A stretch of DNA of 64,000 nt, taken from assembly GCF_000717915.1 (NCBI RefSeq), contig NZ_JOCX01000034.1, positions 6,654-70,653 of the forward strand, in the 5' to 3' direction. Under the pieces are notes generated by a model, which saw nothing but the letters and a program-made list of their open reading frames with translations, made no database searches and had not been told where the DNA came from. Every line of letters begins with the position of its first letter. Position 1 is the first letter of the stretch. Positions 1,367 to 19,341 of the stretch are shown here, one piece after another. Origin of the DNA: Streptomyces sp. NRRL S-244 (GTDB taxonomy: Bacteria > Actinomycetota > Actinomycetes > Streptomycetales > Streptomycetaceae). A program made the position numbers and the translations under genes.

Positions 1367-2893
<1,527 letters not shown>

Positions 2894-2906
2894 GACAGGA
2901 ACGGGC

Positions 2907-3293
2907 CTAGGACGGCGGGACCGTCTGCGGCTCCTGTATGAGGGCCCGGAGTTCCTCGGCGACCGCGGCGACGTCGGCGCGGCCCAGCTTGGCCGCCTCC
3001 ACCAGGTCGCCGAGGTCCTCCGGTGAGGGCAGCTGCTTGGCTCCCGCCACGCGCAGGTACGAGCGCGTGGCGGCGGCCGCGTAGAACTCGTTCATCGGCG
3101 ATTCCAGCGCCGGACACACCGCGAGGGTGTGCAGAAACGCGGCGGCCCGCCACGCGGTGTCCGGGGCGGGCTGTTCGGGCACCAGGACGAGGTCGTTCTG
3201 GTGCCGGGCGACCGCGGCGGCCACCCCGGAGGGATCCCACACGGCGGGATCTGACGGGAGATGGTGGGCCAGAGCGGTCCAGGCCCACTCCAT
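2907..3293 (-). CDS. Fic/Doc-like toxin lacking the Fic motif
   Basis: A 128-residue protein encoded 8 bp downstream of a ribbon-helix-helix gene, the usual antitoxin-first layout. Its layout (AAFLHTLAVCPALES, then AAAATRSYLRVAG, then SPEDLGDLVEAAKLGRADVAAVAEELRAL) follows the C-terminal half of Doc-type Fic proteins. The catalytic loop HxFxxGN(K/R)R is absent: the equivalent stretch reads CPALESPMNEF. Canonical Doc phosphorylates EF-Tu, and that chemistry is not expected from this sequence. The protein is either an inactive relative or a toxin with another mode of action. It converges on the M28 gene with a 13-bp gap. Confidence 0.65.
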   Translation of the reverse strand: MEWAWTALAHHLPSDPAVWDPSGVAAAVARHQNDLVLVPEQPAPDTAWRAAAFLHTLAVCPALESPMNEFYAAAATRSYLRVAGAKQLPSPEDLGDLVEAAKLGRADVAAVAEELRALIQEPQTVPPS

Positions 3294-3301
3294 GGTGATC
3301 T

Positions 3302-3505
3302 TCAATTGCCGAACCGCTCCTGGAAGTAGCTCCAGTGGTCGGCGAACTCCTCGATGCCGGACAGGAAGTTCTTCCGGTCCTCGTCGAGCTCGCGTTCCGT
3401 TACCTCGGTGATCAGCGCGGTGACCGTCGTCCCCAGTGCCGCCGCGCGCGCTTTGAGGCGCTCGTGGAACTCTTCGTCCAGGCGGATGGTGACGTGTCTC
3501 GACAT
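3302..3505 (-). CDS. Ribbon-helix-helix antitoxin
   Basis: A 67-residue protein beginning MSRHVTIRLDEEFHERLKARAAALG, a typical RHH (CopG/Arc-like) DNA-binding fold: an alternating beta strand followed by two helices with TTVTALITEVTERELD. The C-terminal half (DRKNFLSGIEEFADHWSYFQERFGN) is acidic and aromatic and probably contacts the toxin encoded next. The ATG at 3505 is chosen because the RHH strand starts immediately. An upstream in-frame start would translate through the palindromic operator candidate. RHH antitoxins usually repress their own operon through palindromes, and one ends 11 bp before this start. Confidence 0.8.
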   Translation of the reverse strand: MSRHVTIRLDEEFHERLKARAAALGTTVTALITEVTERELDEDRKNFLSGIEEFADHWSYFQERFGN

Positions 3506-3515
3506 GCTTTTCACG

Positions 3516-3535
3516 GTACAGCGGGGCCGCTGTAC
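3516..3535. promoter_or_regulatory. Perfect palindrome, candidate operator of the toxin-antitoxin pair
   Basis: GTACAGCGGGGCCGCTGTAC has two perfect 9-bp arms with a 2-bp centre. It lies 10 bp upstream of the antitoxin ATG, where an RHH dimer pair would block transcription or translation start. No other gene start is close. Confidence 0.7.
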
Positions 3536-3550
3536 ACAGGGCCGGAACGG

Positions 3551-3591
3551 CCGAAGGGTGGGCAGGGACACAGTCCCCGCCCACCCTTCGG
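3551..3591 (-). terminator. Hairpin terminator after the LolA-like gene
   Basis: A 13-bp perfect stem (3551-3563 with 3579-3591) encloses a second small stem, GGGAC-ACA-GTCCC. It starts 23 bp past the stop codon of the minus-strand LolA-like gene and insulates the toxin-antitoxin pair. Confidence 0.8.
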
Positions 3592-3614
3592 ACAGTCCTA
3601 CCCGCCGTACGGCA

Positions 3615-4832
3615 CTACTTGTTGGCGTCGGCCGCCTTCACCAGCGCGTCCTTGGTGACCGCGCCGACGTAGACCTTGCCGTCGTCCGTGATCAGGGCGT
3701 TGACCAGGCGGGTCTTGAAGACCCGGCCCTCGCCGAACTTGCCGGTGACCTTGCCGCCGAGGGAGTCGAGGAACTGCTTGGCCTCCTTCGGAGTGTCCTT
3801 GCCGTTCTCGATCTCCTTCAGGCTCTTGCCTGCACCCGTGTCCATGCGGGCAATGGTCGCCCAGCCCTCGCCGAGCACCTTCGTCTCGCCGCCCTTGCCG
3901 CCCGCGCCGCCCATGCCGCCGGTCAGGGCGCCCAGGCCGGGGAAGGAGTCCAGGCCCTTGAACTCCTTGCCGTGGCCACGGCCGTCCTTGCCCGCCCCGT
4001 CGGCGCCCTCGGTCACCTTGGCGCCCTTGGGCGCGGTGAACGCGAACGTGTCGGCGGACGGCTTGGCGAAGTCCACCTTGGTGAACCCGGCGTCGACGAT
4101 CGGCTTGCCGCCCTCGGCCGCGAGCAGCTGCACCCGCAGCGGCACGCCGTTCTTGGCGTCCACCGCGATCTTGACCGAGCCGACCGTGGATCCGCTCTGC
4201 TTCGGCTTCAGCACCAGCTGGTAGGCGTCCCGGCCGGCCACCTGCGCGGTCTCGCCCACGCTGACGTCCGTGGTCGGGCCGGCGGCCTTCAGCACGTCCT
4301 GGGCCAGCTGCTGGGGCGAGGCGCCGCCGAGCCGCTCGGCCGTCTTCTTCTGGTCCTTGCCGGCCGCCGCATCGGGGTTCTTCTCGTGCCAGACCTCGTT
4401 GGCCTTGCTGTCGTACCCCCAGACGTCGGCGCCGTTGTGGATGAGGCTGTACTCGTCCTTGCCGTCCACGAACGTCAGCTTCTGGCGGTCCGGCCCGTCG
4501 GCCGCGACGCGCAGCGTGTGCGAGCCGTTCGCCAGCTGCGCGATCTTGTCCTCGGGGTTGGCCGAGCCGCCCGCGATGCCCCCGCCGCCGAGGAGGCCGC
4601 TCGCCAGGGTCGGCAGACCCAGGTCGGTGCTGATCTTCGCGCTCCCGGACAGCTGCTGCACGTCGGAGGCGGCGACCTTCTCGATGAGCTGCTGCGCGGT
4701 CATCTTCGGCAGGTCGGGGCCGCCGGAGTTCGCGAAGGCCGGGACCATCGCCACGGTCGCGGCGGCCACACCCGCCACCGCTACCGGTACGGCGTACCGG
4801 GCGGCCTTGCGGGTCTTTGCGTTCGTTGCCAT
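3615..4832 (-). CDS. Secreted LolA-like lipoprotein-carrier-fold protein
   Basis: A 405-residue exported protein with an N-terminal basic stretch and hydrophobic core (residues 1-35, ending AFANSGG). The mature start, MTAQQLIEKVAASDVQQLSG, plus the strand pattern HTLRVAADGPDRQKLTFVD and DAYQLVLKPKQSGSTVGSV resemble the LolA/DUF2092 half-barrel fold of Gram-positive secreted proteins. Gram-positives lack an outer membrane, so classical lipoprotein sorting cannot be its role; a sensory or carrier role at the envelope is inferred. A Gly-rich, charged insert (KDGRGHGKEFKGLDSF, then GGMGGAGGKGG) lies at about residues 280-315. A terminator follows directly and no partner gene is co-transcribed. 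Confidence 0.75.
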   Translation of the reverse strand: MATNAKTRKAARYAVPVAVAGVAAATVAMVPAFANSGGPDLPKMTAQQLIEKVAASDVQQLSGSAKISTDLGLPTLASGLLGGGGIAGGSANPEDKIAQLANGSHTLRVAADGPDRQKLTFVDGKDEYSLIHNGADVWGYDSKANEVWHEKNPDAAAGKDQKKTAERLGGASPQQLAQDVLKAAGPTTDVSVGETAQVAGRDAYQLVLKPKQSGSTVGSVKIAVDAKNGVPLRVQLLAAEGGKPIVDAGFTKVDFAKPSADTFAFTAPKGAKVTEGADGAGKDGRGHGKEFKGLDSFPGLGALTGGMGGAGGKGGETKVLGEGWATIARMDTGAGKSLKEIENGKDTPKEAKQFLDSLGGKVTGKFGEGRVFKTRLVNALITDDGKVYVGAVTKDALVKAADANK

Positions 4833-12140: not shown

Positions 12141-12170
12141 CCGGGGTGGCGGAACTTTCCGCCACCCCGG
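12141..12170 (+). terminator. Terminator of fahA
   Basis: A perfect 12-bp stem, CCGGGGTGGCGG with CCGCCACCCCGG, and the loop AACTTT lie 27 bp after the fahA stop. Confidence 0.85.
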
Positions 12171-12214
12171 CGTCGTAGCAGGTCACAGCCCTGCTGCTGA
12201 GCCCCGGCGGTGGC

Positions 12215-12232
12215 GCAACACTGCGGCAACAC
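12215..12232. promoter_or_regulatory. GCAACAC direct repeat before the GntR gene
   Basis: GCAACAC occurs at 12215-12221 and 12226-12232, one helical turn apart, flanked by GGTGG and CCACC as a wider dyad. It ends 22 bp before the regulator start and could be its autoregulatory site. No database motif was compared. Confidence 0.3.
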
Positions 12233-12253
12233 CACCGGCCGGGGCCCGTCGGT

Positions 12254-13036
12254 ATGTTCCGTGCCATGCCAGCCGAACGCACCCGTGAGCACACCGTCCC
12301 GGTCGCCGCCGCGCGCCGGCGGCGACTGCGCGCGGACCAGGCGCGACAGCTCGCCGACCTGCTGCGCCACCAGATCCTGGCCGGCGGCTACCCCGGCGGG
12401 GTCCTCCCGCTGGAGGACGTCCTCGCCGCCGAGTACGGAGCCGGCCGCAACACCGTCCGCCAGGCCCTCGACCTGCTGCGCGGCGAGCGGCTCGTCGAAC
12501 GCCGGCCGGGGGTCGGGACCGTCGTCGTCTGCGAGAAGTACCCGCACGGCCTCGACCGCCTCCAGGGCCTGGCCGAGACCCTGCACGAGCACGGCCGGGT
12601 GACCAACGAGGTCCGCACGGTCGGCCCGGTGCGCGCCCCCGCCCCCGTCGCCGGCCGGCTGGGGCTCCCCGAGAACGCCGACGTGCTCTACATCGAGCGG
12701 CTGCGGCGGCTGAACGGGCTGCCGCTCTCCCTCGACCTCACGTACATCCCCCTCGACATCGGCGCCGAACTGCTCGGCTGCGACCTGGAGAACACCGACG
12801 TCTTCCGGCTGCTGGAGTCCCTGACCGGGCAGCCCCTCGGCCACGCCGAGATCACCCTGGAGGCCGTCAACGCCGACGCGCACTCCGCCGCCGTACTGCA
12901 GGCCCCGCGCGGGGCCGCCGTGCTGATGCTGGAGCGGCTCACCCATCTGGGCGACGGCCGGCCCGTGGACCTGGAGTTCATCCGCTTCCGCGGCGACCGG
13001 ATCACCATGAGCGGCCTGCTGCACCGCTCCCTCTGA
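12254..13036 (+). CDS. GntR-family regulator with UTRA domain (HutC subfamily)
   Basis: A 260-residue transcription factor. The N-terminal winged helix is seen in LADLLRHQILAGGYPGG, VLAAEYGAGRNTVRQALDLL and ERLVERRPGVGTVV. The UTRA ligand-binding domain starts near residue 100 (GLAETLHEHG, then LGLPENADVLYIERLRRLNGLPLSLDLTYIP) and ends RFRGDRITMSG. HutC-type regulators sense small effectors and usually control adjacent catabolic or transport genes. The ferredoxin starts 32 bp after its stop, and the next genes follow closely on the same strand, so it probably controls them. The ATG at 12254 is given; the ATG at 12266 (MPAERTREH) is equally possible. Confidence 0.88.
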   Translation: MFRAMPAERTREHTVPVAAARRRRLRADQARQLADLLRHQILAGGYPGGVLPLEDVLAAEYGAGRNTVRQALDLLRGERLVERRPGVGTVVVCEKYPHGLDRLQGLAETLHEHGRVTNEVRTVGPVRAPAPVAGRLGLPENADVLYIERLRRLNGLPLSLDLTYIPLDIGAELLGCDLENTDVFRLLESLTGQPLGHAEITLEAVNADAHSAAVLQAPRGAAVLMLERLTHLGDGRPVDLEFIRFRGDRITMSGLLHRSL

Positions 13037-13068
13037 CCCCCTGCGTACCCACCTTCCTGGAGACAGCC

Positions 13069-13296
13069 ATGCCTGTGGTCCCCCAGCGCGGCGACGTGCC
13101 CGTGACCATCGACGAGTCCCTGTGCATCGACGGCTGCACCCTCTGCGTCGACATGTGCCCGCTCGACTCGCTCGCGATCCGCGAGGACAACGGCAAGGCG
13201 TACATGCACGTCGACGAGTGCTGGTACTGCGGCCCGTGCGCCGCCCGCTGCCCCACGGGCGCGGTGACCGTCAACATGCCCTACCTGCTCCGGTGA
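13069..13296 (+). CDS. 2x[4Fe-4S] ferredoxin, AprB-like
   Basis: A 75-residue soluble electron carrier with two cluster-binding motifs: Cys19, 23, 26 and 30 (LCIDGCTLCVDMCP, an unusual C-x3-C first spacing) and Cys51, 54, 57 and 61 (ECWYCGPCAARCPTGAV). The second motif resembles the corresponding segment of the adenylylsulfate reductase beta subunit. A strong GGAG site precedes the ATG. The protein opens a same-strand cluster that ends with a fumarate-reductase-like flavoprotein, for which it is the obvious redox partner. It lacks the C-terminal tail that full-length AprB uses to wrap the alpha subunit. Confidence 0.88.
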   Translation: MPVVPQRGDVPVTIDESLCIDGCTLCVDMCPLDSLAIREDNGKAYMHVDECWYCGPCAARCPTGAVTVNMPYLLR

Positions 13297-13319
13297 CCCC
13301 GGTGAAAGGCCCTGTTCCG

Positions 13320-14684
13320 ATGCGCAGTCCGAGACCGTCCTTCGCCCTCGCCCTCGCCCTCTCCGCGCTCCTCGTTCCGCTGACCGGCGGGTGCGGCGGG
13401 GGCGCGTCCGGGGCGGACGGCCCCAAGACCGTGACGGTGACCGTCGGCTACCAGTCCAAGACCATCAACACCGTGACCGCCGGCACCCTGTTGCGCTCCC
13501 TCGGCTACTTCGAGCAGGAGCTCGCGGAGCGCGGCGGGCGGGACGGCGTCACGTACAAGGTGGACTGGCAGGACTACGCCACGGGCGCGCCCATCACCGC
13601 CCAGATGACCGCCGGGAAGATCGACATCGGCTCGATGGGCGACTTCCCGCTGCTGATCAACGCGGCGCGCGGCAAGGAGCTGGGGCAGCCCACCCGGCTC
13701 GTCTCCGTGACCGGCTACAACCTGCGCGGCGGCCTCAACACCATCGTCACCGCGCCCGGCGCGACGTACGCCTCGCTGGCCGATCTGCGCGGCAAGAAGG
13801 TGTCGACCTCGGTCGGCTCGGCCGCCGACGGGACCCTCGTACGGGCCCTCCAGCGCGCCGGGATCGATCCCGCGAGCGGCATCCAGAAGCTCAACCAGCA
13901 GCCCAGCGTGGGGGCTTCGGCCCTCCAGGCGGGCAGCGCGGACGCGCTGTCGCAGTTCGTGGCCTGGCCCGGGCAGCTCGCGTACGAGGGGAAGGCCAAG
14001 GCCCTGTACGACGGCGCCGAGCTGAACCTGCCGACGTTCCACGGGGTCACGGTGCGGCAGAAGTTCGCGGCGCAGCGGGCCGGCGTGCTGGACGACTTCC
14101 TGCGGGCGCAGCACAAGGCGACGGAGTACCTGCGGACGCGGCCGGTCGCGGCGGCGGAGTCGGTGGCGAAGGAGACCGGGCTGCCGCCGGAGGTCGTGTA
14201 CCTGTACAACGGCGCGAACGGGATCGCGACCTTCGACCCGGCGCTGCGGCCGGAGCTGCTGGCTGCGCTGAAGGAGGACGTACCGGTCCTCAAGGACGCG
14301 AAGCTGGTCGGGGACGTGGACGTGGACGCGTTCGTGGACCCGGCGCCGCTGAAGCGGGCCGTGCCGCAGGCCGGCTACCCGGCGGCGGCGCCCGCCCGCC
14401 CCGAGCTGTGGCTGAGGAACGAGCCGGCGACGCGGACGTTCGACACCCCGGCGGCCCTGCTGAAGGCCCTGAAGGGCGCGGGCGCGGCGGCGGTCCGGGC
14501 GGCGTACGTGCCGGACGCGGTGACCGGGACCCCGTGGTTCGCCGACAAGGCGGTGTGGGTGGCGGAGGGCGCCGAGCTGCGGGCGTTCGTCACGCCGGCG
14601 GGCGCGAAGTCGTACGTCGACCGGCACGGGGGGTCCGGGGCGCGGATCGTGGGCTTCGCCGAAGCCGAAGGCATCGCGTCGTGA
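13320..14684 (+). CDS. Lipoprotein substrate-binding component, NitT/TauT-type ABC importer
   Basis: A 454-residue extracellular solute-binding lipoprotein. The signal sequence ends in lipobox LTGGC, giving Cys22 or so as the acylated first residue. The periplasmic-binding fold starts TVTVGYQSKTINTV and includes GKIDIGSMGDFPLLINAARG and KKVSTSVGSAADGTLVRALQRAG, the layout of taurine/sulfonate/nitrate binders. The C-terminal 100 residues (RPELWLRNEPATRTFDTP and on) exceed the usual 310-340 residue family length and may be an added domain. The ATG at 13320 follows GGTGAAAGG (13301-13309). The substrate is unknown; sulfonates or related sulfur or nitrogen compounds are the family expectation. 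Confidence 0.87.
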   Translation: MRSPRPSFALALALSALLVPLTGGCGGGASGADGPKTVTVTVGYQSKTINTVTAGTLLRSLGYFEQELAERGGRDGVTYKVDWQDYATGAPITAQMTAGKIDIGSMGDFPLLINAARGKELGQPTRLVSVTGYNLRGGLNTIVTAPGATYASLADLRGKKVSTSVGSAADGTLVRALQRAGIDPASGIQKLNQQPSVGASALQAGSADALSQFVAWPGQLAYEGKAKALYDGAELNLPTFHGVTVRQKFAAQRAGVLDDFLRAQHKATEYLRTRPVAAAESVAKETGLPPEVVYLYNGANGIATFDPALRPELLAALKEDVPVLKDAKLVGDVDVDAFVDPAPLKRAVPQAGYPAAAPARPELWLRNEPATRTFDTPAALLKALKGAGAAAVRAAYVPDAVTGTPWFADKAVWVAEGAELRAFVTPAGAKSYVDRHGGSGARIVGFAEAEGIAS

Positions 14685-15553
14685 CTCCGGGGCGCAGGCT
14701 GCTGCGGCTGGCTTCGCTCGGGGCGGCCCTGGTGGCGTGGCAGCTGCTGACTTCGCTGGATGTCGAATTCTGGCTCCGCTTCGGGCAGTTCCCGACGGTG
14801 ACGGAGGTGGCGTCGAAGCTGGCGGAGCGGGCGTCGGCGGCTCCGTACTGGGAGGACGTCTTCTCCAGCCTGCGCAGGATCGTGTCGGGCTTCGCGCTGG
14901 CGGCTGCCCTGGGGGTGGTGGTGGGCACGGCGATCGCCCGCTCGCGGGTGGCGGCGGACGTGCTCGGCCCGGTCCTGGAGGTCGTGCGCCCGATCCCGGC
15001 CATCGCGCTGGTCCCGGTGGCGATCCTGCTCTTCCCCTCGAACGAGCAGGGGATCGTGTTCATCACGTGCGCGGCGGCGTTCTTCCCGGTGCTGGTCTCC
15101 ACCCGCCACGCGGTGGCGGCGCTGTCGCCGGTCTGGGAGGAGGCAGCCCTCACGATGGGGGCGAGGCGGGGGCGCGTACTGCTGTCGGTGGTCCTGCCGG
15201 GCTCCCTCCCCGGCGTCTTCGGGGGCTTGTCGGTCGGGATCGGGGTGTCGTGGATCTGCGTGATCTCGGCGGAGATGATCTCGGGTGAGTACGGCGTCGG
15301 CTACCGCACCTGGCAGGACTACACGGTGGTGGACTACCCGGGGGTCTTCGTCGGCATGGCCACGATCGGCGCCCTGGGCTGGCTGACGTCGACGGCGGTG
15401 GAGCGGCTGGGACGGCTCCTGACCCGCTGGCTCCCGACCCGCGCCGCAGGCTCCGCCCCGAACCCGAGCCCGAACCCGAGCCCGAACCCGAGGCCGAACC
15501 CGAGCCCGAACCCGAGCCCCCGCCGGCCGGCCTCGGAGCCGGCCGTTCCGTAA
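14681..15553 (+). CDS. ABC transporter permease, NitT/TauT (SsuC) type
   Basis: A 290-residue inner-membrane permease with about six helices and the BPD-transp motif EEAALTMGARRGRVLLSVVLPGSLPG (EAA loop) that docks the ATPase. The start is the GTG at 14681, overlapping the TGA of the binding-protein gene (GTGA), so the two are translationally coupled. Residues 260-280 form a Pro-rich tail of NPSP units coded by 12-bp repeats, which is not part of the family fold. The gene belongs to the same operon as the ferredoxin, ATPase and flavoprotein. Confidence 0.88.
   Translation: MTPGRRLLRLASLGAALVAWQLLTSLDVEFWLRFGQFPTVTEVASKLAERASAAPYWEDVFSSLRRIVSGFALAAALGVVVGTAIARSRVAADVLGPVLEVVRPIPAIALVPVAILLFPSNEQGIVFITCAAAFFPVLVSTRHAVAALSPVWEEAALTMGARRGRVLLSVVLPGSLPGVFGGLSVGIGVSWICVISAEMISGEYGVGYRTWQDYTVVDYPGVFVGMATIGALGWLTSTAVERLGRLLTRWLPTRAAGSAPNPSPNPSPNPRPNPSPNPSPRRPASEPAVP
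15457..15517 (+). repeat. 12-bp repeats coding for NPSP tail of the permease
   Basis: Five units of the form CCGAACCCGAGC, one with an AGG variant, encode NPSPNPSPNPRPNPSPNPSP at the permease C-terminus. They are likely polymerase-slippage products and variable between strains. Confidence 0.8.
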
Positions 15554-15602
15554 GCCCGCGTGCCTGGCGGCCGGCATTCGACTACGCACAGGAGGTCCCC
15601 CG

Positions 15603-16370
15603 ATGTCCGCACATGCGGCCCCACCCACCACCCGCGTCCCCGCCACCGCGGCTTCCGCACCGCCCGGCGCCGCCCTCCGCCTCCAGGCCGTCCGGCTCGG
15701 CCGGGCCGGGGGCCCGGCCGTCCTGGACCGGCTCGACCTCGGCATCCGGCCCGGCGAGGTGCTGGCCGTCGTCGGGCCCTCCGGGTGCGGGAAGTCCACC
15801 CTGCTCCGCACCCTCGCCGGGCTCCTGCCCCCGCTCGCCGGCACCGTCACGCAGGACGGAACCCCGATCACCCGCCCCGACGCCGACCGCGCGCTCGTGT
15901 TCCAGGACGACGCCCTCCTCCCCTGGCGCACCGTACGGGCCAACGTCGAACTCCCCCTCCTCATCCGCCGCGTGCCCCGCGCCGAGCGGCGCCGGAGCGC
16001 CGAGGACTGGCTGGCGCGCGTCGGACTCGCCGACCACGCCCTCAAGCTTCCCCACCAGCTCTCCGGCGGCCAGCGCCAGCGCGTCCAGCTCGCCCGCGCC
16101 CTCGCCGCCCGCCCCCGCGCCGTCCTCATGGACGAGCCCTTCGGCGCGCTCGACGCCCAGACCCGCGCCGGGATGCAGGACCTCCTGGTCGACGTCCTCG
16201 CCGGCACCGGCGCGACCGTCGTCTTCGTCACCCACGACGTGGACGAGGCCCTGTTCGTCGCGGACCGCGTCGCGCTCCTCGCCACCGGCACCGTGCTCGA
16301 CGTACCGGCCCCGCGCGACCGGACCGCCGATCACTCCGCCCTCCGTGCCCAGATCCTCTCCTCCCTCTGA
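15603..16370 (+). CDS. ABC transporter ATP-binding protein, NitT/TauT (SsuB) type
   Basis: A 255-residue nucleotide-binding subunit with Walker A GPSGCGKST, Q-loop VFQDDALLPW, signature LSGGQRQRVQLARAL, Walker B AVLMDEPFGALD and the switch His in VTHDVDEALF. This is the complete set for ATP-driven import with the preceding permease and lipoprotein. A perfect AGGAGGT at 15590-15596 precedes the ATG. It is 49 bp downstream of the permease. A heptamer repeat tract separates it from the flavoprotein gene. Confidence 0.92.
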   Translation: MSAHAAPPTTRVPATAASAPPGAALRLQAVRLGRAGGPAVLDRLDLGIRPGEVLAVVGPSGCGKSTLLRTLAGLLPPLAGTVTQDGTPITRPDADRALVFQDDALLPWRTVRANVELPLLIRRVPRAERRRSAEDWLARVGLADHALKLPHQLSGGQRQRVQLARALAARPRAVLMDEPFGALDAQTRAGMQDLLVDVLAGTGATVVFVTHDVDEALFVADRVALLATGTVLDVPAPRDRTADHSALRAQILSSL

Positions 16371-16382
16371 ACTCTGACCTCC

Positions 16383-16435
16383 GGCCGCTGGCCGCTGGCC
16401 GCTGGCCGCTGGCCGCTGGCCGCTGGCCGCTGGCC
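16383..16435. repeat. Seven-fold GGCCGCT heptamer tandem repeat
   Basis: Seven perfect copies of GGCCGCT (16383-16431) plus GGCC are flanked on both sides by CTCTGACCT copies. The array fills half of the 103-bp gap between the ATPase stop (16370) and the flavoprotein start (16474). Copy number is probably variable, and the array could set leader structure or spacing. Confidence 0.95.
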
Positions 16436-16473
16436 TCTGACCTCTGACCGACCCCCGAAGGGCAACCCCCACC

Positions 16474-19251
16474 ATGGACATCCCCGCACTCGCCGACGCC
16501 GAGGAACTCTCCTGCGACGTCCTCGTCATCGGCGGCGGCACCGCCGGCACCATGGCGGCCCTGACCGCCGCCGGCCGCGGCGCGCGGGTCCTGCTGCTGG
16601 AGAAGGCGCACGTACGCCACTCCGGCGCCCTCGCGATGGGCATGGACGGGGTCAACAACGCGGTCGTCCCCGGCCGCGCCGAGCCCGACGACTACGTCGC
16701 CGAGATCACCCGCGCCAACGACGGCGTCGTCGACCAGTCCACGGTCCGCCAGACCGCCAGGCGCGGCTTCGCGATGGTGCAGCGCCTGGAGTCGTACGGC
16801 GTGAAGTTCGAGAAGGACGAGCACGGCGAGTACGCGGTCCGCCGCGTCCACCGCTCCGGCTCGTACGTGCTGCCCATGCCGGAGGGCAAGGACGTCAAGA
16901 AGGTCCTCTACCGGCAGCTGCGCCGCCGCGAGATGCGCGAGCGGATCCGGATCGAGAACCGGGTGATGCCGGTACGGGTCCTCACCTCGCCCGAGGACGG
17001 CCGGGCCGTCGGCGCCGCCGCGTTCAACACCCGTACCGGCGCCTTCGTGACGGTCCGCGCCGGCGCCGTGATCCTCGCGACCGGCCCCTGCGGCCGGCTC
17101 GGACTCCCCGCCTCCGGGTACCTGTACGGGACGTACGAGAACCCCACCAACGCCGGTGACGGCTACGCCATGGCCTACCACGCGGGCGCGGCCCTCACCG
17201 GGATCGAGTGCTTCCAGATCAACCCGCTGATCAAGGACTACAACGGACCGGCGTGCGCGTACGTCGCGAACCCCTTCGGCGGCTACCAGGTCAACCGGCA
17301 CGGGGAGCGGTTCGTCGACTCCGACTACTGGTCGGGGCAGATGATGTCGGAGTTCGCGGCCGAACTCGCCTCGGACCGGGGGCCGGTGTACCTGAAGCTC
17401 AGCCACCTCCCGGAGGAGTCGGTCTCCGCCCTCGAATCGATCCTGCACACCACCGAGCGGCCGACCCGCGGCACCTTCCACGAGGGCCGAGGCCACGACT
17501 ACCGCACGCACGACATCGAGATGCACATCTCGGAGATCGGACTGTGCGGGGGCCACTCGGCGTCGGGCGTGCGCGTCGACGACCACGCGCGCACCACCGT
17601 CCCGCGGCTGTACGCGGCCGGCGACCTGGCCTCCGTACCGCACAACTACATGATCGGGGCGTTCGTCTTCGGCGACCTGGCCGGCGAGGACGCGGCGCAG
17701 TACACCGCGTACGAGGGCCCGCTCCCGGCGGAGCAGGTGGCGGCGGCGCACGAGCTGGTCTACCGGCCGCTGCGCCGGCCGGACGGGCCGCCGCAGCCGC
17801 AGGTGGAGTACAAGCTGCGACGGTTCGTCAACGACTACGTGGCCCCGCCGAAGACGGGCGCGAAGCTGTCGCTGGCCGTGGAGGCCTTCACCCGGATGGG
17901 CCGCGAGATCGAGGAGATGGGGGCGCGGACGGCGCACGAGCTCATGCGGTGCGCGGAGGTGTCGTTCATCCGGGACTGCGCGGAGATGGCGGCGCGGGCC
18001 TCGCTGGCGCGGACCGAATCCCGCTGGGGCCTGTACCACGAGCGGCTCGACCACCCGGAGCGCGCCGACCCGGCCTGGCTGCACCACCTGGACCTGCGCA
18101 AGTCGGCTTCGGGGGCGATGGAGTTCACGGCCCGCCCGGTGGAGCCGTACGTGGTCCCCGTTCCCGAATTCGCCCCGCCGGGCGGCCCGTCCCGCCACCT
18201 GGGCGAGGTCGAACTGGTCGGCGTGGCGACGGCGGGGCCGCGCGCGAGCGCTCCGGTCCCGGGCCGGGGTCCGGAACCCGCGGCGCCCTCCGAGGCCTCC
18301 CCTGCCGGTGCCGGAGACGGGGCCAGCCCCGGGGGCGGGGCCAGCGCCGGTTCCGGGGTCGGGGCCGGGGAGGCCGGCGGCGCCTCGCCCCGGATCCTCG
18401 AACTCCTGGCCCTGGCCGAGGAGTCCCCGGACCTGGCGGTCCTGCGCCCGTACCTCACCGACCCCGATCCGGCCGTACGGGCCGCCGCGGTGACGGCGAT
18501 CGGCGAAACCGTTCCGGCGGGCGCGGGCCCGGAGCTGGCGGCCCGTCTCGGCGACGCCGATCCCGCGGTACGGGCCGCCGCCGCGGCCGCGCTGCGGGAG
18601 CTGCTGGAGGTGCTGCCCGGGGACCCGGAGCTCGGGGCCGCCCTGCGCGCGGCGCTCCCCGTACCGGACCCGGTGGTGCGCGCCGCCGCCCTGGAGGCCC
18701 TGCGCGCGCTGCGGCTCGGCGGCGCCGGCCTGTACGCGGAGTCCCTGGCGGACCCCGACCCGGAGGTCCGTATCCACGCCGTACGGGCGCTGGTCTCGGT
18801 GGACGCCGTCGCGGCCCTCGCGCGGGCCGCGGCGGACCCGGCCCGGGAGGTCCGGGTCGCGGTGGCCAAGGGGCTCGCGGCGGTGCACGCCCCCGCCCCC
18901 GCCCCACTGGACCCCCTCCTCGCGGACCCGGACCCGCTGGTCCGGGCCGCGGCCCTGGCGGCGCTGGCCGCCACGGGCTGCCGCGGGCCGTACGCCGCGA
19001 CGGCCGTCGCGGCCCTGGCCGACCCGGCCTGGCAGGTCCGCGCGGGCGCGGCCACCGCCCTCTCGGCGGCCGACCCCGCCACGGCCGTCGCCGCCCTCGC
19101 CGCGGCCCTGAAGGACGACAACGCGGACGTCCGCAAGGCCGCCGTCCTCTCCCTCCGCGCCCACCGCACCGCCCCGGAGGCCCGCACGGCCCTGGCCGGC
19201 GCCGCCTCCGACCCCGACGCGGATGTCCGCGCATATGCCAGTCGCCACTGA
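16474..19251 (+). CDS. Fumarate-reductase/AprA-like flavoprotein fused to HEAT repeats
   Basis: A 925-residue fusion. Residues 1-570 form an FAD-binding domain of the succinate dehydrogenase/fumarate reductase/AprA superfamily: dinucleotide motif VLVIGGGTAGTMAA (15-28), LLLEKAHVRHSGA, DGYAMAYHAGAALTGIECFQ, HISEIGLCGGHSASGV and C-terminal FAD contact LYAAGDLASVPHNYMIGAFVFG. Residues about 571-638 are a Gly/Ala/Pro linker. Residues 640-925 are eight or more HEAT-like repeats of the form DPDPAVRAAAVTALG, which suggests a protein-docking scaffold. GAAGGG at 16457-16462 serves the ATG. With the co-encoded ferredoxin it should form a two-electron redox enzyme acting on whatever the ABC importer brings in; the substrate cannot be assigned. 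Confidence 0.82.
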   Translation: MDIPALADAEELSCDVLVIGGGTAGTMAALTAAGRGARVLLLEKAHVRHSGALAMGMDGVNNAVVPGRAEPDDYVAEITRANDGVVDQSTVRQTARRGFAMVQRLESYGVKFEKDEHGEYAVRRVHRSGSYVLPMPEGKDVKKVLYRQLRRREMRERIRIENRVMPVRVLTSPEDGRAVGAAAFNTRTGAFVTVRAGAVILATGPCGRLGLPASGYLYGTYENPTNAGDGYAMAYHAGAALTGIECFQINPLIKDYNGPACAYVANPFGGYQVNRHGERFVDSDYWSGQMMSEFAAELASDRGPVYLKLSHLPEESVSALESILHTTERPTRGTFHEGRGHDYRTHDIEMHISEIGLCGGHSASGVRVDDHARTTVPRLYAAGDLASVPHNYMIGAFVFGDLAGEDAAQYTAYEGPLPAEQVAAAHELVYRPLRRPDGPPQPQVEYKLRRFVNDYVAPPKTGAKLSLAVEAFTRMGREIEEMGARTAHELMRCAEVSFIRDCAEMAARASLARTESRWGLYHERLDHPERADPAWLHHLDLRKSASGAMEFTARPVEPYVVPVPEFAPPGGPSRHLGEVELVGVATAGPRASAPVPGRGPEPAAPSEASPAGAGDGASPGGGASAGSGVGAGEAGGASPRILELLALAEESPDLAVLRPYLTDPDPAVRAAAVTAIGETVPAGAGPELAARLGDADPAVRAAAAAALRELLEVLPGDPELGAALRAALPVPDPVVRAAALEALRALRLGGAGLYAESLADPDPEVRIHAVRALVSVDAVAALARAAADPAREVRVAVAKGLAAVHAPAPAPLDPLLADPDPLVRAAALAALAATGCRGPYAATAVAALADPAWQVRAGAATALSAADPATAVAALAAALKDDNADVRKAAVLSLRAHRTAPEARTALAGAASDPDADVRAYASRH

Positions 19252-19262
19252 CGGGGTCAACA

Positions 19263-19298
19263 TTCCGGGCCCGTTCACACGTGTGGACGGGCCCGGAA
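19263..19298 (+). terminator. Terminator of the ferredoxin-ABC-flavoprotein operon
   Basis: An 18-bp inverted repeat with a single G-T mismatch (19263-19280 with 19281-19298; tip CACAC/GTGTG) begins 11 bp after the flavoprotein stop. Confidence 0.8.
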
Positions 19299-19341
19299 GG
19301 ATCTCCGGCGATACTCCGGCGAGCCCGGGAGACTCCCCCGC

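Follow-up and report, generated by a model that had tools for sequence, protein, structure and literature searches.

A six-gene operon in the window

In the genome of Streptomyces sp. NRRL S-244, we analysed a 64,000-nt stretch of DNA (hereafter the window) carrying a plus-strand operon of six genes at positions 12266-19251, which joins a ferredoxin, an ATP-binding cassette (ABC) importer and a large flavin adenine dinucleotide (FAD) protein, and which we interpret, with a probability of roughly 0.78, as the actinobacterial form of an asf-type operon scavenging sulfur from organosulfonates. Gene content and order, protein families, conservation, closest folds, altered active-site residues and promoter conservation were established computationally. 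All open reading frames (ORFs) were confirmed and encode, in order, a GntR-family regulator of the HutC/UTRA type (12266-13036; PF00392 and PF07702), a 75-aa AprB-like ferredoxin (13069-13296), an SsuA/TauA-like binding lipoprotein (13302-14684), a NitT/TauT-type permease (14681-15553), an ATPase (15603-16370) and a 925-residue FAD protein ending in HEAT repeats (16474-19251). The closest proteins retrieved by sequence search belonged to Streptomyces. An earlier note, made from the letters of this DNA, had described six same-strand genes with short gaps and one start-stop overlap, with which the ORFs, the intergenic distances (32, 5, -4, 49 and 103 bp) and the 4-nt overlap GTGA joining the binding-protein and permease genes (14681-14684) agree. 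It had also proposed a common terminator, of which the hairpin was found on the plus strand at 19263-19298 (16-bp stem; the fold of 19255-19305 reaches -35.2 kcal/mol, z -6.4) but not the classical form, as the hairpin lacks a T-run and was not listed by a consensus terminator scan. Two repeats also lie in the operon: one, in the spacer from the ATPase gene to the flavoprotein gene (16383-16450), consists of 9.7 units of GGCCGCT, and the other is a 12-bp tandem repeat encoding PNPSPNPS at the permease C-terminus (15457-15519).

Ferredoxin and importer

Pfam and NCBIfam matches together with alignments identified the ferredoxin as a two-[4Fe-4S] protein with 8 Cys (AsfB-like). The dedicated, AprB-like two-cluster ferredoxin of the earlier note was retained; the protein stays below the AprB family cut-off, with 31 bits against the aprB model TIGR02060 (cut-off 135.65).

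The importer fell, as anticipated, in the sulfonate/taurine/nitrate class. NMT1/SsuA-type matches and the predicted fold characterize the binding protein (AsfC-like), PF00528, the binding-protein-dependent transport domain, the permease, and PF00005 the ATPase, whose best NCBIfam match is a taurine ATPase below its cut-off. A fold search with the binding-protein model ranked SsuA and TauA above nitrate, bicarbonate and hydroxymethylpyrimidine (HMP) binders, and the fold remained closest to SsuA even though the sequence scored 118.1 bits against the SsuA model TIGR01728 (cut-off 163.5). The C-terminus of this protein (14394-14681) would form a NosL-like domain, as suggested by the predicted model, in which residues 361-460 reach a predicted local distance difference test (pLDDT) score of 84-97, and by NosL matches in 9 of 13 aligned binding proteins, the window's own sequence giving no match. 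The fold search, which mainly covered residues 41-360, did not list NosL in its 50 rows. In binding proteins of actinobacteria other than Streptomyces (L100, L105, L107, L108 and others), this domain follows a DPVC-like motif and one further Cys; these features, absent from the window's protein, could possibly form a metal or thiol site.

A flavoprotein related to APS and PAPS reductases

The earlier note's large flavoprotein of the FrdA/AprA superfamily with a HEAT part was recovered with FAD_binding_2, Succ_DH_flav_C and HEAT domains (Pfam/NCBIfam), the HEAT repeats covering about 18385-19251. This AsfA-like protein is a member of PRK13800 (NF010374; 1579.7 bits, cut-off 1196) and also matched PRK08275 (859.7 bits). 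Among solved structures, its profile was nearest to the alpha subunit of 3'-phosphoadenosine 5'-phosphosulfate (PAPS) reductase (8a8o_A, 281 bits), followed by adenosine 5'-phosphosulfate (APS) reductase (204 bits) and SdhA (134 bits).

Active-site residues, whose comparison the earlier note had proposed, were counted in two alignments (A1, 12 rows; A5, 22 rows) that both include the window and total 33 distinct sequences, the printed numbering of APS reductase being verified at residues 141, 145, 234, 265 and others. Arg265 of APS reductase (AprA) corresponds to Leu252, and His242 of SdhA to Asn250, in all rows of both alignments; Glu141 of APS reductase aligns with Ser128, a variable position, Gln145 aligns with Val132, and Arg286 of SdhA falls in an unaligned insertion. 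Asn61 and His361 align with identical residues of PAPS reductase. We take Arg265 to be catalytic and Glu141 to bind APS in APS reductase, and His242 and Arg286 to be the substrate-contacting and catalytic residues of SdhA; given these presumed roles, Leu252 and Asn250 indicate that the flavoprotein is neither an APS reductase nor a succinate/fumarate enzyme. Gln145 of APS reductase has likewise been implicated in APS binding (PMC10322725).

An assimilatory APS or PAPS reductase, working in a pathway like that of Methanothermococcus, would account for the closest solved structure and for the alpha-beta gene pairing, but is very improbable: Arg265, Glu141 and Gln145 are not conserved, the genes are linked to an importer, and neither ATP sulfurylase nor APS kinase is named in the tables of 19 non-actinobacterial neighbourhoods.

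Conservation was concentrated in residues 205-365, of which 55% were invariant versus 18-29% elsewhere in the 12-row alignment, and 62% versus 33-42% in the 22-row alignment. In this flavoprotein superfamily, this part corresponds approximately to the substrate-binding region, and it is likely to be the substrate region here as well, which argues for substrate chemistry over an electron relay alone. The AlphaFold model of the flavoprotein was poor (pLDDT 61) and weak in this same region.

Conservation and distribution of the module

The search for the same gene order in other genomes, suggested by the earlier note, retrieved the exact six-gene order in 76 of 80 actinobacterial loci among the matches listed, which are named genomes and actinobacteria only. 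The exceptions were L075, where no GntR gene was detected, and L086, L099 and L115, cut by contig ends. A chance cluster is rejected by this synteny. The flavoprotein of HEAT type was above its cut-off in 16 of 61 genomes comprising the window's and its relatives, and the family was found in 8 of 296 genomes sampled across the phylum, hence a patchy distribution.

In a plasmid collection, 51 records matched by tblastn, with a query coverage of 80% or more in 48; they come from actinobacteria, cyanobacteria, alpha-, beta- and gammaproteobacteria and Acidithiobacillus. One of these records (NZ_LT559118.1, Nonomuraea, 11.85 Mb) is probably a chromosome, and three Acinetobacter records of 3.7-4.1 Mb may be misclassified in the same way. 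In actinobacteria the HEAT domain is fused to the flavoprotein; cyanobacteria, proteobacteria and Acidithiobacillus have a rearranged module in which HEAT is encoded by a gene of its own. The combination, which the earlier note had considered rarely found in one operon, is instead a conserved and widespread module.

We examined 19 annotated non-actinobacterial neighbourhoods, excluding the unannotated L126-L129, with plasmid gene tables being incomplete. Flavoprotein, ferredoxin and separate HEAT genes were found in all 19 (spread over ~5 kb in L029), the ABC trio in 16, and a DUF971 or Mrp/NBP35 ATPase gene in 15. The two Mrp proteins that were scanned combine FeS_assembly_P with a NUBPL ATPase, domains that are associated with DUF971 in HCF101, and the DUF971/Mrp proteins are probably iron-sulfur assembly helpers. 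Sulfur-gene neighbours, according to a list compiled after reading the neighbourhoods, were present in 11 of the 19 loci. In an Acidithiobacillus caldus plasmid (L037:10102-14035), FdxA and a 1153-aa FAD oxidoreductase, candidate electron donors, directly follow the module. In Paraburkholderia (L130:15529-19539), it is directly followed by genes for an LLM oxidoreductase, an aldolase, a 3-mercaptopropionate dioxygenase and a rhodanese.

A conserved promoter region

The regulator gene and family were as described in the earlier note, but its start at 12254 was not retained: from the alignment, a start at 12266 is more likely, because TATGTT (12253-12258, plus strand) occupies the position of a -10-like hexamer in relatives (TATGGT, TAGGGT or TACGTT). 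With this putative promoter, the operon transcript is probably leaderless.

Three plus-strand elements were defined upstream, with patterns drawn up after viewing the upstream alignment; the region of L058, which contains masked letters, was excluded from the counts. The third, el3 (GGTGGCGCAAYACTGC.GCAACACC, 12209-12235), is the probable operator of the operon, a candidate drawn from its conservation: its core TGGCGYAA occurred in 50/50 Streptomyces regions including the window and in 18/25 regions of other genera, versus 22/1479 control pieces. The first, el1 (GTGGCRGATCTT-like, 12146-12157), had matches of its type in 49/50 Streptomyces regions including the window versus 67/1479 control pieces, although its short pattern alone did not discriminate (91 sites versus 85 in a reversed control), and el2 (GCAGGTCA, 12178-12186) is weak alone, matching 636/1479 control pieces. 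The spaced triple el1-el2-el3 was found in 28/50 Streptomyces regions, 3/25 of other genera and 4/1479 control pieces. The el1 element overlaps and lies inside a perfect, GC-rich inverted repeat (12141-12170; 13-bp arms, hairpin of -31 kcal/mol), located directly 3' of a fumarylacetoacetase-like gene and probably its terminator.

Across 15 relatives, 10 of 11 carriers had one el3 site upstream of the flavoprotein gene, at a distance of ~4.2-4.5 kb in nine of them and 1.6 kb in G014; el3 was absent from carrier G038 and from all four non-carriers, and two stray sites with 3 mismatches occurred among the 15. Together with the site in the window's genome, this ties the el3 region to the operon. 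In G014 (contig C288), el3 at 26-48 and the flavoprotein gene at 1636-4368 are too close for the usual five intervening genes, which may reflect a short operon or an assembly gap. A wider el3 regulon was rejected, the window's genome containing one el3 site, as was an RNA switch 5' of the operon, for which two Rfam rows were obtained, both far under the gathering score.

The class of the regulator varies across the module, between GntR, Crp/Fnr and LysR fused to a binding-protein-like domain. A cyanobacterial example of the latter, with an NMT1 domain, adjoins the module on the minus strand of L032 (5304-7337, scanned), with matching genes in L121 and L122, and such a fusion may sense the imported ligand.

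A probable asf-type operon for sulfonate sulfur

The published asf cluster, which recovers sulfur from aromatic sulfonates, comprises a reductase with its ferredoxin, a binding protein, an ABC transporter and a regulator (PMC4267179, PMC2864759), and asfA was also described from Rhodococcus and Williamsia in a 2022 paper (PMC9694294). The same composition was retrieved here. A reductase gene accompanied by a dedicated ferredoxin gene is found in the window, in all 19 non-actinobacterial loci and in 77 actinobacterial loci with the full order; a sulfonate-class binding protein and ABC transporter are part of the window's cluster; and the beta- and gammaproteobacterial order flavoprotein-ferredoxin-binding protein fits the asf letters A-B-C. 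The substrates would probably be aromatic or other bulky sulfonates.

Several observations weigh against this identity. No AsfA-labelled sequence appeared among the 120 rows listed, so that the identification is based on composition and taxa. Of the genera with asfA, Hydrogenophaga, Acidovorax, Stenotrophomonas and Williamsia were not among the matches listed. Nor was C. metallidurans among the plasmid records listed from two tblastn searches (51 records each, a portion of them listed for the second), where inclusion of its second replicon is uncertain. Eight of the 19 non-actinobacterial loci had no sulfur neighbour in the stretch examined; TauE/SafE, TSUP and YeiH had no match by marker tblastn in the 80 listed actinobacterial loci; and an LLM or TauD match was found in only 15 of these 80, a count with no background rate. 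The window's regulator is of GntR-UTRA type, versus the LysR-type AsfR. Finally, binding protein, permease and ATPase all remained under the NCBIfam sulfonate/taurine cut-offs.

The unreached cut-offs would also suit the import of another small anion (a nitrogen compound, a carboxylate or a thiamine precursor) and its reduction by a fumarate-reductase-like enzyme, as the NitT/TauT class spans many ligands, L124 has thiCOGE beside the module, and L029 and L036 have amidase/GNAT neighbours. We consider this alternative quite unlikely in view of the SsuA/TauA ranking of the binding-protein model, the sulfur neighbours of the 11 loci and the Asn at the position of SdhA His242.

We file the window operon as an asf-type module rather than a proven asf operon, its identity appearing strong but indirect. 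In the corresponding scheme, where we infer the substrate, the sulfite product, the direction of electron flow, the roles of the HEAT and NosL-like domains, and the ligand and binding site of the regulator, the SsuA-like lipoprotein with its NosL-like tail would catch a sulfonate that the permease and ATPase would import. In the cytosol, the FAD protein and the AprB-like ferredoxin would help to release its sulfur, presumably as sulfite, for assimilation, with the HEAT domain acting as a docking or assembly module and the GntR-UTRA protein controlling the operon from its dedicated conserved promoter. The earlier note had likewise proposed import followed by a cytosolic redox step under a HutC-type regulator, a reading that was supported in part.

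Electron supply or direct desulfonation

According to the published view, Asf supplies electrons to an oxygenase, its supposed partner being SsuD (PMC4267179). A different mechanism would have the flavoprotein/ferredoxin pair itself cleave the carbon-sulfur (or S-X) bond, reduced FAD attacking the sulfonate sulfur and freeing sulfite without an oxygenase, and we hold it as tentative and rather unlikely. In its favour, the solved structures closest to the flavoprotein are those of PAPS and APS reductases, for which an attack of FAD N5 on sulfur has been proposed (PMC10322725), and conservation of the flavoprotein peaks in residues 205-365. FdxA and ferredoxin-NADP reductase genes lie near the flavoprotein gene in L038, and likewise in L127 by tblastn match.

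The distribution of SsuD bears on both mechanisms. No genome of the 37 examined in the genus exceeded the cut-off of the SsuD model, and 25 had a match of at least 300 bits, our own line for a close SsuD. Close SsuD and operon did not co-occur (within the genus, 9/12 carriers versus 16/25 non-carriers; Fisher p 0.71), and six of 22 carriers had no close SsuD (the window's genome G000, with a best match of 60 bits, G013, G016, G250, G045, with a best match of 242 bits, and the incomplete G048); both results speak for direct cleavage. Against direct cleavage, the 16 other carriers have a close SsuD, and NtaA-type monooxygenases (TIGR03860), above cut-off in G000 (three), G013 and G016, could replace SsuD, so an oxygenase may still be the partner. 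Moreover, the position of the presumably catalytic Arg265 is Leu in all 33 distinct sequences, and strain S-313 reportedly converts arylsulfonates to phenols with oxygen from O2. It is doubtful to the same degree that the Asf pair is an APS-reductase-derived "sulfonate reductase", with an active site rebuilt at conserved motifs near ECFQINPLIKDYNGPAC and DYWSGQM and desulfonating without SsuD, although the lack of a close SsuD in the window's genome would point that way.

Sulfonates make up a major part of the organic sulfur in soils, and asfA is a marker gene for the release of their sulfur (PMC4267179, PMC9694294). Should the family prove to be AsfA, a sulfur-cycle gene would lie concealed, including in Streptomyces and cyanobacteria, under the widely used label "fumarate reductase/succinate dehydrogenase flavoprotein" in thousands of clusters at 90% identity (at least 6,654 candidates at E <=1e-100), and the kinship with APS reductase yields a testable idea for the attack on the carbon-sulfur bond.

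Comparison with known systems

The earlier note had regarded the system as undescribed. Its parts match the published asf cluster, and it is probably of a known kind, of which the window represents an actinobacterial variant, with the enzyme mechanism as the interesting part. The open-access literature searched yielded no account of an asf operon in Streptomyces, of the HEAT fusion or of the NosL domain, and the available parts of PMC8557817, PMC6971185 and PMC3826726 contain nothing tied to the window operon. Bphy_7232-37, an operon beside soxCD that depends on NifA and is reported as an "alkane sulfonate ABC transporter" (PMC8305402), was neither matched nor excluded.

With asfRABC of Pseudomonas putida S-313 and asfAB of Cupriavidus metallidurans, the window operon shares the same parts in one cluster, the sulfonate class and genera, but it differs by the fusion of HEAT to the reductase and by the order ferredoxin-binding protein-permease-ATPase-flavoprotein. 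It resembles SsuABC/TauABC in the fold of the binding protein and the class of permease and ATPase, but its binding protein has an extra NosL-like domain and its importer stays under the family cut-offs. As in the Methanothermococcus PAPS reductase (8a8o) and AprAB, an FAD alpha subunit is paired with a two-cluster ferredoxin-type beta subunit; the latter contains Trp42 in PAPS reductase (PMC10322725), of which the invariant Trp of the motif ECWYC in window-type ferredoxins may be the counterpart. By contrast with these reductases, the window protein has Leu252 for Arg265, does not keep Glu141 and Gln145, and no nucleotide-pathway neighbours were seen. Lastly, the protein is a member of the "fumarate reductase/succinate dehydrogenase flavoprotein subunit" families (PRK13800/PRK08275), a misleading name since Asn250 takes the place of SdhA His242 and the Arg286 region falls outside the alignment.
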